From Candidatus Stoquefichus sp. (GTDB taxonomy: Bacteria > Bacillota_I > Bacilli_A > Erysipelotrichales > Coprobacillaceae): a DNA stretch of 35,771 nt. Shown here in pieces: positions 25,338-33,206 of this stretch. The stretch covers positions 1 through 35,771 of the forward strand of contig JAETUM010000025.1 in the NCBI GenBank assembly GCA_021768625.1, given 5' to 3'. Made by a program: the position numbers and the translations under genes. The notes under the pieces are model-generated. The model was given only the letters and a program-made list of their open reading frames with translations, was not told where the DNA came from and searched no databases. How positions within the stretch are numbered: the first letter of the stretch is position 1; every line of letters begins with the position of its first letter.

Positions 25338-26183
25338 TTATTCTGTTGTTGTAGCCTTGTTTTGTTGATAATAGATTGCATTTTTCTTATTATCTAATAC
25401 AAATGCATCATATACAATTCTACCCTCTACAAGCTCACCACTGATTCCTGGTGGATCTTGATGAGTTCTGTAATCTTCTAGCTTTGTAGGTGCAACTGTA
25501 GCACATGGATGAGCTAACATGAAACCAAAGTCTTCAGGTAATCTCACTGAAGGAATTCTCATAACTAGAGCTCCATCCAAGTTAGCAATAACACCTTTTA
25601 ATCTTAAATCATTACCTATATCTGTTTCCATTGTGATATCTTTACTCTTTTTCATAATTCTATATACGCTTGGAGTTACAACCAACACTCTATTAGTTTC
25701 AGGTACCTCTGCATTGTCTAATGTTTCCGTAGCCTTAGTAATCTCATCATATATATTCTCTGGTGTAAGAGTGATAGCAGTAGGTTTTGTTCCTGCGCCA
25801 TCACACATAACCCCATAAGTATATGTATCAACCTCAGGAATAACAACCTCTCGGTTTTGTCTAGCTAATGCACTTGCACTTGCTAAAGATCCCTGAGTTT
25901 CGTCATTATCCAATTTATCAATAACAAATGTAAATGATCTATCTTTCTTTAGTGTCATTTCTTCCGTTACTCCCTCTAAATCCTTAGGAGTTCCGAAACG
26001 ATTCTTTCCTGTTGTATCATTTCTTGAATAGTCATTCATACTAGCAGTGCTAACCTTGTACACCTTGACAGTATGAGCTCCCATCCAGTCAAAATCTTGA
26101 TTTGTCAATAATGACTTTTTACTTTCTGTAGAAAATTGTTCATCAACATAAGGCAAATATTTTGTAGTTAAATCTGTTGCCAT
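25338..26183 (-). CDS. Phage major capsid protein
   Basis: 281 residues. The opening LTTKYLPYVDEQFSTESK, the TVKVYKVSTASMNDYSR stretch, EEMTLKKDRSFTFVIDKLDNDET and the late RVLVVTPSVYRIM and EGRIVYDAFVLD blocks match major capsid proteins of Firmicute siphophages (HK97-like fold, family level from memory). It forms the head shell. It follows the scaffold gene by 13 bases, the normal head-gene order, but no protease, portal or terminase gene accompanies it. AAAGGA precedes the ATG. Confidence 0.83.
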   Translation of the reverse strand: MATDLTTKYLPYVDEQFSTESKKSLLTNQDFDWMGAHTVKVYKVSTASMNDYSRNDTTGKNRFGTPKDLEGVTEEMTLKKDRSFTFVIDKLDNDETQGSLASASALARQNREVVIPEVDTYTYGVMCDGAGTKPTAITLTPENIYDEITKATETLDNAEVPETNRVLVVTPSVYRIMKKSKDITMETDIGNDLRLKGVIANLDGALVMRIPSVRLPEDFGFMLAHPCATVAPTKLEDYRTHQDPPGISGELVEGRIVYDAFVLDNKKNAIYYQQNKATTTE

Positions 26184-26196
26184 TTATATATCCTTT

Positions 26197-26634
26197 CTAA
26201 GACTTAGGCTTAAAGGCCTCTCTTATAGGATCACTGCCTTTAGAAAATTCATTCTCTCCAGGAGGAGCTCCTATTGGTTGAAAACCTAAATCTTTCTTAT
26301 CTTCTTTCTTTTCTTCTTTTGTTTCGTAAATAGCTTGTAATTGATCTAACTTGCTATTTAGATCTTTTTCATCTGTAAAAGAAATAATGCCTGATAATTC
26401 TTGTGACATTCCTCTTTCACTTAATGCACTTTTAAGGATAAAGGCTTTCTCTCGCTTTTCGAGTGCGCTTAATTTCTCTTGATATTCTGCCTCAAAATCC
26501 TTTGTTGCGCTTTTTCTGTAAGAGGCCAGTCTTTTCTGTACGATTGCACTAACCTCATCAGAAGTATAAGTTTTTTGTTCCTTTACTTCTGTTTCCTCTG
26601 TTTGAGTTGTTTCTGTTTGTTGGTTATTTTCCAT
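26197..26634 (-). CDS. Phage capsid scaffolding protein (DUF4355-like)
   Basis: 145 residues, very rich in Glu and Lys, with a predicted coiled coil at about 45-65 and 80-115 (YTSDEVSAIVQKRLA, DFEAEYQEKLSALEKREKAF) and a Pro/Gly-rich tail. The composition and the position just before the major capsid gene are those of DUF4355/GP20-type scaffolds, which shape the procapsid. In a satellite it could set a smaller shell size (inference). Confidence 0.78.
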   Translation of the reverse strand: MENNQQTETTQTEETEVKEQKTYTSDEVSAIVQKRLASYRKSATKDFEAEYQEKLSALEKREKAFILKSALSERGMSQELSGIISFTDEKDLNSKLDQLQAIYETKEEKKEDKKDLGFQPIGAPPGENEFSKGSDPIREAFKPKS

Positions 26635-27566: not shown

Positions 27567-27929
27567 TTAATGATTATCTTCATTATATTGCCCCTCCACA
27601 TTTTCAAGCTCATTTACAAATTCTTTTTCCCACTTCCATAAATCGGCTTCAGTATCAGGAAAACATCCATTTTCTTGATGATACACTTTCATCCATTGAA
27701 AAGTAGCTGACGCATTCCACTTTATCATATCTCTTTCACATTCTCTACCTTTCATTTCTCCAAAATTGAATGCTAACATCATACAAGCGAAAATATCATT
27801 ACTTCCAAAGTGTTCAGGAATAGCTCTAATAACTCTTTGATAGTTTTTATTGTCTGTAAATGTTGTCTTTCCTAATATAGTTAATTGATCATCAACATAA
27901 TATTGATGTATATCTTTTATTATTTTCAC
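27567..27929 (-). CDS. Satellite protein of unknown function, 120 residues, AFNFG motif
   Basis: Starts at GTG 27929, with GAGGAA about 10 bases upstream. Residues about 24-60 (FTDNKNY ... MMLAFNFGEMKGRE) align with the shorter neighbouring protein (FTTNENY ... NVAFNFGYAIGR), so the two are paralogues. The C-terminal half is acidic with several Trp. The AFxxG-x-x-x-GR helix occurs in many small phage proteins without known role. Its leader carries three hairpins with the same loop. Confidence 0.6.
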   Translation of the reverse strand: MKIIKDIHQYYVDDQLTILGKTTFTDNKNYQRVIRAIPEHFGSNDIFACMMLAFNFGEMKGRECERDMIKWNASATFQWMKVYHQENGCFPDTEADLWKWEKEFVNELENVEGQYNEDNH

Positions 27930-27972
27930 TTTTTTATATTCCTCTCTTTCATTTTTCTAAAGAGAATGTTAC

Positions 27973-28075
27973 AATCCTATTGGTAGTATTGGATTATAAC
28001 CTCTCTAAGATATATGTTTTAACTCAATATCGTTGGTAGTGATATAGAGCTATATTTTATGTGTTGGTAGCACGT
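27973..28075. promoter_or_regulatory. Three hairpins with identical TTGGTAG loops
   Basis: TTGGTAG occurs at 27980-27986, 28033-28039 and 28064-28070, each flanked by inverted repeats: 27973-27979/27987-27995 (7 pairs, 2-base bulge), 28023-28031/28041-28049 (8 of 9 pairs), and 28059-28063/28071-28075 (5 pairs with one G-T). On the minus-strand transcript the loops read CUACCAA. They fill the gap before the 120-residue gene and may bind a protein or RNA. Confidence 0.55.
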
Positions 28076-28076
28076 T

Positions 28077-28268
28077 TTATATCGTACTCTTTGTACTTTG
28101 GTTATTTTTTACACTTCTACCTATGGCATACCCGAAATTAAATGCCACATTTAAAGCACTATAATCACAACCATATAACTTCTTTATCTTTAATAAGATA
28201 TCTATATAGTTTTCGTTTGTGGTGAATGGTGCTTTTATGATTTTTGCTATAAACTCATCTTTTTTCAT
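28077..28268 (-). CDS. Small satellite protein, 63 residues, AFNFG motif
   Basis: ATG at 28268 preceded by AAGGTACACCAAT. The protein has FTTNENYIDILLKIKKLYG and NVAFNFGYAIGRSVK, aligning with the 120-residue neighbour. Mostly helical and soluble. Function unknown; it lies 11 bases after the 63-residue coiled-coil gene in the early operon. Confidence 0.6.
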   Translation of the reverse strand: MKKDEFIAKIIKAPFTTNENYIDILLKIKKLYGCDYSALNVAFNFGYAIGRSVKNNQSTKSTI

Positions 28269-28471: not shown

Positions 28472-28493
28472 GCTTTTCATCTCCTTTTTTAAA

Positions 28494-28692
28494 TTATCAA
28501 GTTTATCATTTTACCTATAGAGAGTGAGAATTTGATAAACTTGTACAAAACCATTGGTATATAATGGTTTACAAAGATTATCAATTGATAATTATGTAAG
28601 TCTAAAAATTATCAATATATATATCAATTTTATCAAGTTGATAATTATGTAAAAGCATTGATATATTCAATATTTTTTATCAAAATTATCAA
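28494..28692. repeat. Iteron-like array, candidate satellite replication origin
   Basis: TTATCAA occurs at 28494, 28578, 28609, 28630, 28677 and 28686, and its inverse TTGATAA at 28532, 28585 and 28638: nine copies in 199 very AT-rich bases. A perfect 16-bp palindrome ATTATCAATTGATAAT lies at 28577-28592, and the 15-mer TTGATAATTATGTAA is repeated at 28585 and 28638 (53-bp period). The array lies directly downstream of the primase-helicase gene, as in satellite islands whose initiator binds iterons beside its own gene. Confidence 0.7.
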
Positions 28693-28695
28693 ATT

Positions 28696-30474
28696 TTAAC
28701 CCTCTTTAGGAACAAGTGATAAAAATGTGATTTTATCTTTACCAAATCCTTTGACTTTTATATCTATGATATTGTCTTTTTTTAAATCCTTTTTAGCTCT
28801 TTCAAGAGTAGCACTTGCATATCCACACGCTTTGGCATACTCTAACAATTCTTTATTTTCCATAGTACTCTCATGTTCTTGTAACTGTTCTAGTATGAAC
28901 TCTTTAGCTTCTTCTTTGGCTCCCTTGCCTTTACGCTCATAAGATTTCTTACTCATAAAGTCCCTATCTTTTTTAGTGGTGAAACCTCTTAATGTCACAA
29001 CTCCATCATCAATGGTAAATAATGAAGTATCTTGAAGTTTAGCAACATTACATTTTTCATGAGATAAATAGCGTATATCATCTTCCCCAGTATGACCTAC
29101 TATAAAGACATTTCTTGCTATATCCCATATATCAGAGCTATCACTGATTCTACCTCTTGCTGATACGTCATTCTTCTTGTTTGTATGACATACTATTAAA
29201 GTTGTTACTCCTAATTCTTCACCAAAACCATTTAAAGGAGCTAGAGTGTTTCTCATTTGATTTCTATAGCCCATATTAACATTATTGGGTAAGAACCCCT
29301 GTAATGGATCAAATACCAATAATACAGGCTTGTGGGTATTAACTAACTCTTTTAAATAAGGACTATTATATTTCACTTCCTGAAACCTCTCATCACTTAA
29401 TTTAATTGTGAATATGTTATTCATATTAGCACCATTGACCCTCAGTCTTTTTTTTAATGTTGTATTCATATCATCTTCACTTGAGAAAAACATCACCTTT
29501 TGAGGTTTTCTTTCTTCAATAAGTGAGTAGTTCTCATCTTCAAAAAATGTATATGTGCCACTGCTTATAGAGGCGACTATATCACACCATATAGTAGTTT
29601 TTCCCACTCCACCATCACCAGCCAGGATAGTTATAGCTCCTTTAGGTATGAAATCACGTATCAGCCATTCAGGCTCTTTTTCCTCAACATCTGCCATTGA
29701 GATCATTTTAGTACTTAGATTTTTAGTATTCTCTTGATATGTACTTGTTCCTTTATCATATCTATCTGTAACACTTTGATAAATAGCCTTAACTTCTTCC
29801 TTTGTAAGTGGTGGATCACATTTAGCTTTGTTCTCTTGCCACAAAGCATTTAATATAGCTTTATCAGCTAGACCTTTAGATTGCAAAGAGCTTGCTAATT
29901 TAAACAACATATCATTTCTTTGACCTTGTGTTATTTTATTTTCCATATGTAAAGGCGTATCACTTGGGGGTCCAACTGGACCTGATAAAAAACCATACAC
30001 AAAGCCATCAGCTTGCACCACTGGATCGTTATTATCCCATTCATAACAACGACCATCTATTTGACTTGGTGGAGCCACTACATAACCGTTATTAGCTCTT
30101 ATATCAATACCAGGATAAATATTAACCCTATTCTTAAAGTCGCCCTCAACGTGATAATATAAGTGATAACCACCACTAGGTGTTTTGACCTTTGCAGTAT
30201 CAGGGAGGCCTACACCATATTCTTTCATTGATTCTAGACCTTTTGCCTCATGCTTAACATCAATATCTATAACTAATATCCCGTCACCTGTAGCAATACC
30301 TATGTTATAGTTTGGGTTGGTATTCCACCATTTTTTTATAGTTACCAAATCAGTTGTAGCCTCATTTTTCCATGATCTTAATACTTGGCCACTTTTACTA
30401 TTTGGTTGCAAAGGAAATACCCTAAGACCAGCTTTGGCATAATTCAAGGCACTTTCTTTTAAACTACGCACCAT
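28696..30474 (-). CDS. Primase-polymerase/helicase fusion (replication initiator)
   Basis: 592 residues from the ATG at 30474 (a second ATG 4 codons earlier and a GTG next to it are alternatives). N-terminal primase-polymerase domain (about 5-165): LRVFPLQ, the acidic LVIDID motif and PSGGYHLYYH. A PriCT-like helical region follows (about 180-235, QGQRNDMLFKLASSL). The C-terminal RepA/AAA_25-type ATPase has Walker A GDGGVGKTT (about 286-294) and Walker B LLVFDPLQ. Such fusions replicate satellites and plasmids. It is preceded by the excisionase-like gene, overlapping it, and followed by the iteron array. Confidence 0.85.
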   Translation of the reverse strand: MVRSLKESALNYAKAGLRVFPLQPNSKSGQVLRSWKNEATTDLVTIKKWWNTNPNYNIGIATGDGILVIDIDVKHEAKGLESMKEYGVGLPDTAKVKTPSGGYHLYYHVEGDFKNRVNIYPGIDIRANNGYVVAPPSQIDGRCYEWDNNDPVVQADGFVYGFLSGPVGPPSDTPLHMENKITQGQRNDMLFKLASSLQSKGLADKAILNALWQENKAKCDPPLTKEEVKAIYQSVTDRYDKGTSTYQENTKNLSTKMISMADVEEKEPEWLIRDFIPKGAITILAGDGGVGKTTIWCDIVASISSGTYTFFEDENYSLIEERKPQKVMFFSSEDDMNTTLKKRLRVNGANMNNIFTIKLSDERFQEVKYNSPYLKELVNTHKPVLLVFDPLQGFLPNNVNMGYRNQMRNTLAPLNGFGEELGVTTLIVCHTNKKNDVSARGRISDSSDIWDIARNVFIVGHTGEDDIRYLSHEKCNVAKLQDTSLFTIDDGVVTLRGFTTKKDRDFMSKKSYERKGKGAKEEAKEFILEQLQEHESTMENKELLEYAKACGYASATLERAKKDLKKDNIIDIKVKGFGKDKITFLSLVPKEG

Positions 30475-30895
30475 TGACCACCTCATAGGCCTTTAATGCC
30501 TTTGCCCTATTACTTATATCAAAACCTAAGTAATCACGCTTAAAACGCTCATATTCTTCTCTTGGTACCATTCTAGATTTACCAGTCTTAATAGCTCTCA
30601 TAATACCAATTTCTAGCCACATACTAACTAATTGTCTTGAACATTTGCAGTCATTTGCTATTTGTTCTACATCTAGCATATCACGATTTATAAGCTCCTG
30701 GACTGTATCCGTTTGGAACTCTTCCCATGTATGCTCAATCTTTCTTAATTCTTCAATTCTTACTAGAATTTCATTCATTCTAGCGTTGATCTTTTCCCAT
30801 TCTTTAGCACTTAATAGATTATCACTATTAGCAAGTCTAGAATATTCACTAGCTAATTGTGTATGCTCAAGAATGATTTTTTCCTTGTCTGTCAT
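30464..30895 (-). CDS. Excisionase/AlpA-like HTH protein
   Basis: 143 residues. An N-terminal coiled coil (about 1-60) is followed by a winged-helix/MerR-like domain (about 72-120: VEQIANDCKCSRQLVSMWLE, then MVPREEYERFKRDY), typical of excisionase or AlpA-type proteins. It may direct excision or activate early genes. Its end overlaps the primase-helicase start by about 11 bases, so the two are co-translated. Confidence 0.65.
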   Translation of the reverse strand: MTDKEKIILEHTQLASEYSRLANSDNLLSAKEWEKINARMNEILVRIEELRKIEHTWEEFQTDTVQELINRDMLDVEQIANDCKCSRQLVSMWLEIGIMRAIKTGKSRMVPREEYERFKRDYLGFDISNRAKALKAYEVVNGA

Positions 30896-31483: not shown

Positions 31484-31984
31484 ATGAGTGTAGGTGAAAA
31501 TATAAGAAGAATTAGAAAAGAAAAGAGTTTAACTCAAAAAGAATTAGCTAAAATGTTAGATGTTAGCGAGCCAATGGTAAGCCAGTATGAAAAAAAAGAG
31601 AATTTAAAATTACAAACTATACGCAAAATAGCTCATGCGTTAAATGTTTCTATTAGTGATATTGTTGATGATTGGAGTGCTTTCTCTATTGATGAAATAC
31701 AGGAAGATTTAATCAATCCACAAGAAAAAGAATACTATAAAGAATTAAATAAAAGACAAATCTCTTTAATCTATGATTTAATTGGTACAATCTTTAAAGA
31801 AACCGGCAAATATCCTATCAATCTAAACGATATAGACGGCCTAAACATCTTCATGAATAAAAAGCTTACAGAGTATAAAACTCTAAGTAACGAAGAACTA
31901 AAAGTAATAGAAAAAGATGTACTTAATTATCTTGATTTTTTACTAGACAAGGCACTAAAAAATAAGGAAAGCAAAAAAATGTAG
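31484..31984 (+). CDS. XRE-family satellite repressor (CI/Stl-like)
   Basis: 166 residues. N-terminal XRE HTH (residues 5-60: NIRRIRKEKSLTQKELAKML, SEPMVSQYEKKENLKL), followed by a helical C-terminal domain without an obvious LexA-like peptidase motif. A repressor of this type is usually lifted by an interacting helper-phage protein rather than by RecA, as for Stl in satellite islands. It is divergent from the Cro-like gene with shared operators and lies next to the integrase gene on the same strand. GAGGTG precedes the ATG. Confidence 0.82.
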   Translation: MSVGENIRRIRKEKSLTQKELAKMLDVSEPMVSQYEKKENLKLQTIRKIAHALNVSISDIVDDWSAFSIDEIQEDLINPQEKEYYKELNKRQISLIYDLIGTIFKETGKYPINLNDIDGLNIFMNKKLTEYKTLSNEELKVIEKDVLNYLDFLLDKALKNKESKKM

Positions 31985-32081: not shown

Positions 32082-33206
32082 ATGAGCATTACAAAAAGAG
32101 AATTAAAGAATGGTAAAATCGTATATGACAACGCATTTATGTATAAGGGTATACGATATAAGAAAAGAGGTTTTAAATCAAAAGGAGAAGCCGAAAACTG
32201 GGAAATTACAATCAAATATGAAGTGAATAAAAATGGATCATATTTTCAACCATGCGAGAAGAGATTTTTTGAAGTATATAAGGAGTTCTTCAGTATTCAA
32301 AAAGACAAGATGGCCTTAAATACAATTAGTTCATACAATACAGGTATACACCATATTAAGAAAAATAAAGTGTATAAAATGAAAATATTAGATATTAATT
32401 ATTCTATCTTACAAAGTTTCTTTAATGAATTAGCAAAGGATCATAGTAAGAGTTCATGTGAACAGGTCAAGAAAGTATTCAATGCTACTTTTACACATGC
32501 CATTAAAAATGGATACATGTCTTTCAACCCTATGCAATATGTGAAAATCAATGTAAAGAAGAACAACAAAGAAAAAAGAATAATCACAAATCAAGAGTTC
32601 ATCAAAATATGCAATTATTTCTTATCAGACAATACTTTTGAACACAAGAGTATATATATAGCCTTATGTATTGGATATTACACTGGAGCAAGAATAAGCG
32701 AGGTTATGGCATTGACAAAAAATGATATTGATTTTGAACATCATACAATCAGCTTTAACAAAAGACTAGAATACAGGGTTAAAAAAGAATATCTATACAT
32801 ATCTACAATGAAAACTCAAAATTCTTATGCTACATTACCACTTGCTAAACCAATTGAAAATCTATTAGAGGAGTGGTTTGAGGTTAATCCTTATGAAAAT
32901 ATAGTGTGCTTTGAAGATGGCAGCTATCCATCATATAACTATATTCAAAAGCATATCAAATCGGCAAGCAAAGAACTAGGTATACCATTTCATTTCCATA
33001 TGTTAAGACATTTATATGCTACAAATCTTGTAAAGAACAATGTCAATATAAGTGTTGCTAAAAAATTGCTAAGACACGCAAAGGTTGAAACAACTCTAGA
33101 CATTTATACACACACTAATTTTAGTGAAGAACAAAAAGCATTAGAAAGCGTATTTTCTAACAATTTGAATGATAATTACCCCAAAATTACCCCAAAAGTT
33201 AATTAA
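32082..33206 (+). CDS. int: Tyrosine-recombinase integrase
   Basis: 374 residues. An N-terminal AP2-like arm-binding region (about 1-60) and SAM-like core-binding domain (about 65-160) precede the catalytic domain with Arg in YYTGARISEVMAL, HMLRH, RHAKVETTL and the likely nucleophile Tyr in DIYTHT. It recombines attP with the 26-bp attB in the acetyltransferase gene. AGGAGG precedes the ATG. Its last codons contain the ACCCCAAAA doublet, and it ends 79 bases before attR, the normal place for an integrase. Confidence 0.93.
   Translation: MSITKRELKNGKIVYDNAFMYKGIRYKKRGFKSKGEAENWEITIKYEVNKNGSYFQPCEKRFFEVYKEFFSIQKDKMALNTISSYNTGIHHIKKNKVYKMKILDINYSILQSFFNELAKDHSKSSCEQVKKVFNATFTHAIKNGYMSFNPMQYVKINVKKNNKEKRIITNQEFIKICNYFLSDNTFEHKSIYIALCIGYYTGARISEVMALTKNDIDFEHHTISFNKRLEYRVKKEYLYISTMKTQNSYATLPLAKPIENLLEEWFEVNPYENIVCFEDGSYPSYNYIQKHIKSASKELGIPFHFHMLRHLYATNLVKNNVNISVAKKLLRHAKVETTLDIYTHTNFSEEQKALESVFSNNLNDNYPKITPKVN
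33177..33198 (+). repeat. Tandem ACCCCAAAA sites near the right end
   Basis: TACCCCAAAAT followed by TACCCCAAAAG within the integrase 3' end, same orientation as the left-end doublet. Candidate integrase arm sites. Confidence 0.5.

Follow-up and report, generated by a model that had tools for sequence, protein, structure and literature searches.

Does a heptamer that recurs between two small genes of a satellite-like element belong to a functional RNA, and if so, on which strand would this RNA lie and what would it act on? The question arises from the window, by which we mean the whole stretch of 35,771 bases that was analyzed.

The repeated heptamer and its surroundings

An earlier note had located the heptamer in a leader between two paralogues, and this holds: the gene of a 63-aa protein (28077..28268, − strand) lies upstream of the gene of a 120-aa protein (27567..27929, − strand), and the two products are related. 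Profile searches returned no Pfam or PHROG match for the 120-aa product, whose leader is overlapped by the RNA predicted below. Both genes are part of a satellite-like element with an integrase (32082-33206), an HTH repressor (31484-31984), a Prim-Pol/AAA primase (28696-30486) and small genes; among the relatives of the primase, the one with a species name comes from Faecalicoccus pleomorphus. A major-head-like gene (phrog_422) and scaffold-like genes were also observed within the element (25338-26634). Downstream of the primase gene (28480-28700) many TTATCAA/TTGATAA repeats occur, similar to those after the primase of the satellite L008; they are likely the iteron origin of the satellite.

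The heptamer TTGGTAG is present in three exact copies, all on the + strand (at 27980, 28033 and 28064) and spanning 91 bases. While their total number is at the level of chance in a window of this length (shuffle mean 3.66), none of 400 dinucleotide shuffles contained three same-strand copies inside approximately 100 nt, and the non-random clustering claimed by the earlier note is thereby borne out. Copies 2 and 3 form exact 7-nt loops on the + strand. Hairpin 2 (28027..28045, +) has a 6-bp stem and its loop UUGGUAG at 28033-28039; hairpin 3 (28059..28082, +) has a 5-bp stem and the same loop at 28064-28070, followed by UUUAUAU. Both lie within the match to the covariance model R1 described below, and the two are the sole pair in the window with identical 7-nt loops, stems of at least 5 bp each and a distance of 19-60 nt, and any such pair appeared in 8 out of 400 shuffles. 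Each stem includes a G.U pair, next to the loop in hairpin 2 and one position from the end of the stem in hairpin 3, that would be an A.C mismatch on the CUACCAA strand. Hairpin 3 would be the weak terminator of the predicted + strand RNA; the terminator scan did not call it.

Copy 1 (27980-27986) lies within a 13-nt loop of a longer stem (hairpin 1, 27973..27995), whose best fold is on the CUACCAA strand and which could be part of the 120-aa leader. Of the three hairpins described earlier with the heptamer as loop, those of copies 2 and 3 have it exactly, and copy 1 sits in a larger loop. A further hairpin at 28548-28570, which had been regarded as a fourth related one, does exist with a perfect 8-bp stem inside the repeat region; its 7-nt loop, GGTATAT, is unlike TTGGTAG.

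A predicted RNA family in prophages and satellites

Two CTACCAA copies 16-46 nt apart were found in 88 out of 315 genomes of the order. Most of these matches are due to chance, since a control with the reversed pattern gave counts at least equal, and inspection by eye together with the stem test kept 11 loci in 9 genomes (L206-L216). On the UUGGUAG strand of these loci the extended −10 TGNTAWAAT is followed by a hairpin at the 5' end and then by one or two that have the loop UUGGUAG. A final hairpin repeats this loop and, with the T run after it, forms the terminator. For L212 the scans reported both a promoter (TTGCCT-17-TATAAT with TG) and a 12-bp terminator. In two genomes of another family (L217, L218) UUGGUAG hairpins stand before non-integrase genes, and L219-L220 are without hairpins; one of the L217/L218 hairpins has a 12-bp stem 1.4 kb away.

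The covariance model R1 was built from 10 RNAs of the L206-L216 set, with the window excluded, and contains the loop UUGGUAG. In its alignment 96.2% of the cells are paired and 11 out of 16 pairs show two-sided changes, a value that was not reached in any of 500 shuffles. At E <= 0.01 the model found matches in 24 out of 315 genomes of the order. Class-wide it matched 10 out of 395 genomes at the same threshold, seven of which are from the order, the other three being without paired loops.

The family would consist of RNAs of approximately 90-140 nt antisense to the leaders of integrase genes in prophages and, in satellites like that of the window, to the leader of a small gene of the paralogue family. 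For 37 RNAs we recorded the opposite-strand gene starting about 10-210 nt from the RNA 5' end (30 genes scanned, three more found, four RNAs without such a gene by a simple rule); 22 of the 30 scanned genes match a recombinase family (1e-5), and both tyrosine and serine recombinases are among the neighbors (L283, L289). The other flank of the RNA holds a cargo gene and genes of the repressor region. In L207, L211-L214 and others, the inverted repeat ACGTNCTC..GAGTACGT lies upstream of the RNA, extends over the −10 and is a possible operator. The integrase ribosome-binding site is covered in the same loci by a CACGTC..GACGTG hairpin with a following T.

Applied to the window, R1 gave its top match at 28022-28082 (+) with 24.8 bits and E 0.005 (26 matches listed), the second-best match scoring 13.8 bits. 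The predicted antisense RNA spans 27981..28082 (+, approximately 100 nt), where the 5' end is deduced from the candidate extended −10 promoter TGTTACAAT (27967..27975, +; hexamer 5/6), whose distance to the 120-aa start codon is 38 nt. A simple promoter scan did not list TGTTACAAT. The phage RNAs have TGNTAWAAT at the equivalent place and strand, and the satellites L007 and L043 have TGTTATAAT there, 34 nt from the opposite start codon. Over the 315 genomes the 12 best members score 60-86 bits. With its low score, imperfect −10 and weak terminator the window copy is a weak member of the family.

The pairing, too, favors one strand. In 61 distinct hairpins we counted 25 G.U pairs on the UUGGUAG strand versus 4 A.C, i.e. 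G.U on the other strand (p = 1e-4). Because of this bias, the promoter and the terminator we assign the RNA to the strand complementary to the leader, and on these sequence features the UUGGUAG strand is most likely the functional one. The earlier note had taken the CUACCAA leader transcript as the functional RNA, which is the reverse of what the conserved RNA with its own promoter and terminator indicates.

Relatives of the 120-aa protein occur in its own genome and in only two others (98 related genomes; a profile over 315 genomes agrees). In one of these, L007, the loop is found in the same orientation on a different stem before the gene copy, and the RNA region of this satellite ends with a 13-bp terminator. 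The RNA of L043 is without the UUGGUAG loop; an R1 match there (22.3 bits) is a degenerate TTGGTAG pair and was left out of the counts. L008, the other genome with a relative of the protein and the nearest satellite by its primase, keeps both flanking genes and has no such hairpins. On whether loop and stems are conserved where the flanking genes are kept, the answer is mixed, with L007, where the downstream genes are retained, in favor and L008 against. A candidate for a paralogous leader in the own genome was rejected, as the match (L002) sits in a response-regulator gene resembling spo0A.

Short reading frames were observed next to the start codons. In the window, the end of an 8-codon frame (MKERNIKK, 27926-27952) overlaps the GTG with which the 120-aa gene starts. 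L007 has a hydrophobic frame of 32 codons, without Pfam match, whose end overlaps the start codon of the related gene (ATGA). Such an arrangement suggests translational coupling. At the place where a type I toxin-antitoxin system would have a small hydrophobic toxin gene under the antisense RNA, L007 has this 32-aa frame, and other loci have recombinases or members of the 120-aa family.

No account of such an RNA was found among the matches listed in literature searches on UUGGUAG (by title), on integrase antisense RNA and on Erysipelotrich prophage small RNA, and as far as these matches go this RNA I-like family of temperate phages and satellites is new. Phage records contained neither the window locus nor the RNA, and plasmid records did not contain the RNA. 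A protein-based search of viral contigs gave no relatives, and the triple-CTACCAA pattern matched mostly simple repeats in these contigs.

Concerted loops and the likeness to RNA I

To what extent the two hairpins agree was determined with a loop-free probe, the conserved 5' end, which was run on viral contigs and on 43 genomes of the family and yielded 25 distinct RNAs. Matches that repeated the first 110 bases of another one were left out, as were those without the extended −10, hence all 25 RNAs have this element. The same loop is present in both hairpins in 22 out of 25 RNAs (UUGGUAG 12, UUGGCG 5, UUGCCAG 3, UUACCAG 1, UUGCAG 1), and in L277, L282 and L286 the two loops differ by 1-3 bases. 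Shuffling of partners led to a mean of 7.5 and a maximum of 16 identical pairs in 100,000 trials, and without the UUGGUAG class 10 out of 13 are identical compared to a shuffle mean of 3.4 (reached in 4 out of 100,000); as related elements are not independent, these values are descriptions and not exact probabilities. The weaker R1 matches have other loops, again mostly the same one in both hairpins. A prophage in the genome of the window itself (L295) has stems nearly equal to those of L289, and both of its loops are UUGCAG. This concerted change suggests that the loop sequence sets who regulates whom. The earlier note had taken the fixed loop on differing stems to mean that the loop is recognized, perhaps by a kissing RNA, and the covarying stems and concerted loops of the relatives support this well.

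RNA I-type kissing RNAs are copy-number devices of plasmids such as ColE1. The model R1 matches ColE1 RNA I with 37.6 bits (E 2.8e-6), and the loops of its second and third stem-loop (SL2, SL3) are both UUGGUAG. We compared this to a sample of 13 ColE1-like plasmids, namely ColE1 and 12 of 60 matches listed (L308-L320). The SL2 and SL3 loops are equal in 11 out of 13 (they differ in L314 and L320) and fall into four classes, UUGGUAG, UCCCCA, UUGCCG and UUGCUG. Concerted loops are therefore also a trait of RNA I, even if not a textbook criterion for it. The target of RNA I is the opposite-strand RNA II, as stated in an excerpt of PMC8683028. An excerpt of PMC4485353 describes the recognition loops of plasmid antisense RNAs as YUNR U-turns in which mutations lead to new incompatibility groups; the UUGG of UUGGUAG fits YUNR.

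The family further resembles ColE1 RNA I in a length of approximately 100 nt, the antisense position, three stem-loops and the use of SL3 as terminator. Loops of 6-7 nt and a terminating last stem-loop are found in the phage members, while the window has two good loops and a weak terminator. The RNAs differ from RNA I in that they were seen before integrase or satellite genes of elements in Gram-positive gut bacteria and not at a replication origin, and in that the opposite transcript is a leader mRNA and is not known to be a replication primer like RNA II. The Rfam RNAI model (RF00106), which does find ColE1, gave no match in the window (E up to 5) and none in L206, L208, L211, L212 and L214-L216 (E up to 2). 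What the comparison supports is hence a likeness to RNA I in the way of working, and not common descent.

Other antisense systems were considered as well. The attenuating antisense RNAs of pT181 and pIP501 type control rep genes. They are comparable in that the family RNA, too, would interact with the leader of a Gram-positive element while it is being transcribed, and different in their target and in that no common switch was found for the family RNA. The immunity RNAs P4 CI and P1 c4 are small RNAs of a satellite and a phage that silence their own leader, which is close to the action considered here, but their structure is different and no Rfam match was obtained at the thresholds used. Prophages do encode antisense RNAs, e.g. 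lambda OOP, P22 sas and BTP1 STnc6030, two of which bear on superinfection exclusion; these are directed against cII, sieB and structural genes, and the excerpt of the source makes no mention of repeated identical loops (PMC7067206).

Potential mechanism and alternatives

The RNA family, its strand, promoter and terminator, the covarying stems and the concerted loops are supported by computation. With slightly more confidence than doubt, we propose that the + strand at 27981-28082 encodes a small antisense RNA of this new family which would lower the expression of the downstream gene by RNA I-type kissing. Transcription would start from the extended −10 beside the ribosome-binding site of the downstream gene, lead away from this gene and stop at a hairpin. 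Two hairpins of the RNA would display the same U-turn heptamer UUGGUAG, and transcripts reading from the upstream genes into the downstream gene (the integrase gene in most prophage members, the 120-aa gene in the satellite of the window) would bear the complementary CUACCAA hairpins. By analogy with RNA I, the antisense RNA could then kiss the CUACCAA loops and pair with the leader, resulting in less expression of the downstream gene. That the RNA is expressed, kisses, has this target and regulates in this direction we infer. Points against the proposal are the failure of the Rfam RNAI model to match, the weakness of the window copy, the better overall fold of the leader strand in the window, the missing hairpins in L008, and the genomes G023 and G030, whose two elements share one loop.

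Masking of the leader by the RNA lowers the predicted accessibility of the ribosome-binding site in the window from 0.49 to 0.17. There is no such drop in L007 or in most integrase leaders, with weaker shifts in L206 and L215, and a general switch in which the RNA frees or closes the ribosome-binding site was rejected. Given that neither this common switch nor a target in trans was found, repression could be a matter of attenuation, processing or transcriptional interference.

A target in trans is the best of the alternatives, and a possible though rather doubtful one. Here a small RNA of the UUGGUAG strand would act through its identical loops on other mRNAs, be they from the element, from a helper phage or from the host, which would agree with its own promoter and terminator and with loops that are equal within one RNA and change together. 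However, sequences complementary to an element's own loop do not recur within about 10 kb, and sites of the own class near ribosome-binding sites occur in 5 out of 17 elements tested, about as often as those of other classes. The concerted loops are shared by ColE1 RNA I with its target on the opposite strand; we therefore dropped loop identity as an argument against a target in cis. A fixed host target is unlikely because two different loops are present in 4 out of the 6 genomes that have two elements (G000, G005, G038, G068; the same loop in G023 and G030).

The proposal of the earlier note, that an RNA-binding protein recognizes the CUACCAA loops of the leader mRNA, now appears unlikely. 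The leader strand does fold well: in the window it is more structured over the whole leader (z −4.9) than the + strand (z −0.9), and in L007 it reaches z −5.6. But the other strand is the one with the promoter, the terminator and the excess of G.U pairs, and a protein reading a fixed loop fits badly with a loop that varies by element and does so in step in both hairpins. Similarly improbable is that the window copy resembles the phage RNAs only by chance or as a decayed remnant. Its low model score, weak −10 and weak terminator would be in line with this; the clustering beyond chance is not, and in front of the related gene both L007 and L043 have retained the antisense promoter in this position, L007 also the loop. 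We give hardly any weight to the idea that the repeats act as DNA, either as operators or for recombination, with the hairpins as dyads. They do lie beside integrase genes, and several members have inverted repeats over the −10. Against this, the stems covary under loops that are constant or change in step, wobble pairing follows one strand, and a DNA-binding protein would read the stem sequence.

If the antisense RNA with kissing loops is real, it would mean that plasmid-style RNA incompatibility extends to the control of integration among the temperate phages and satellites that inhabit Gram-positive gut bacteria, and its loop classes would offer a clean natural set for testing how two kissing loops evolve together. 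As a speculative extension, by analogy with plasmids, the RNA might be an incompatibility determinant: the RNA of a resident element would target in trans the leader of a newcomer that shares its loop, and so shut off the integrase of the newcomer (in satellites, its small operon), so that loop classes would be groups of mutual exclusion at integration. They would then mirror the RNA I loops that define plasmid incompatibility groups. The loop pattern in the genomes with two elements is compatible with such an exclusion and is no proof of it.

Finally, one prophage possesses a second terminator-like hairpin (L253:16838, −) which has the loop UUACCAG, as in the RNA of that prophage, and lies 7 kb away from it.
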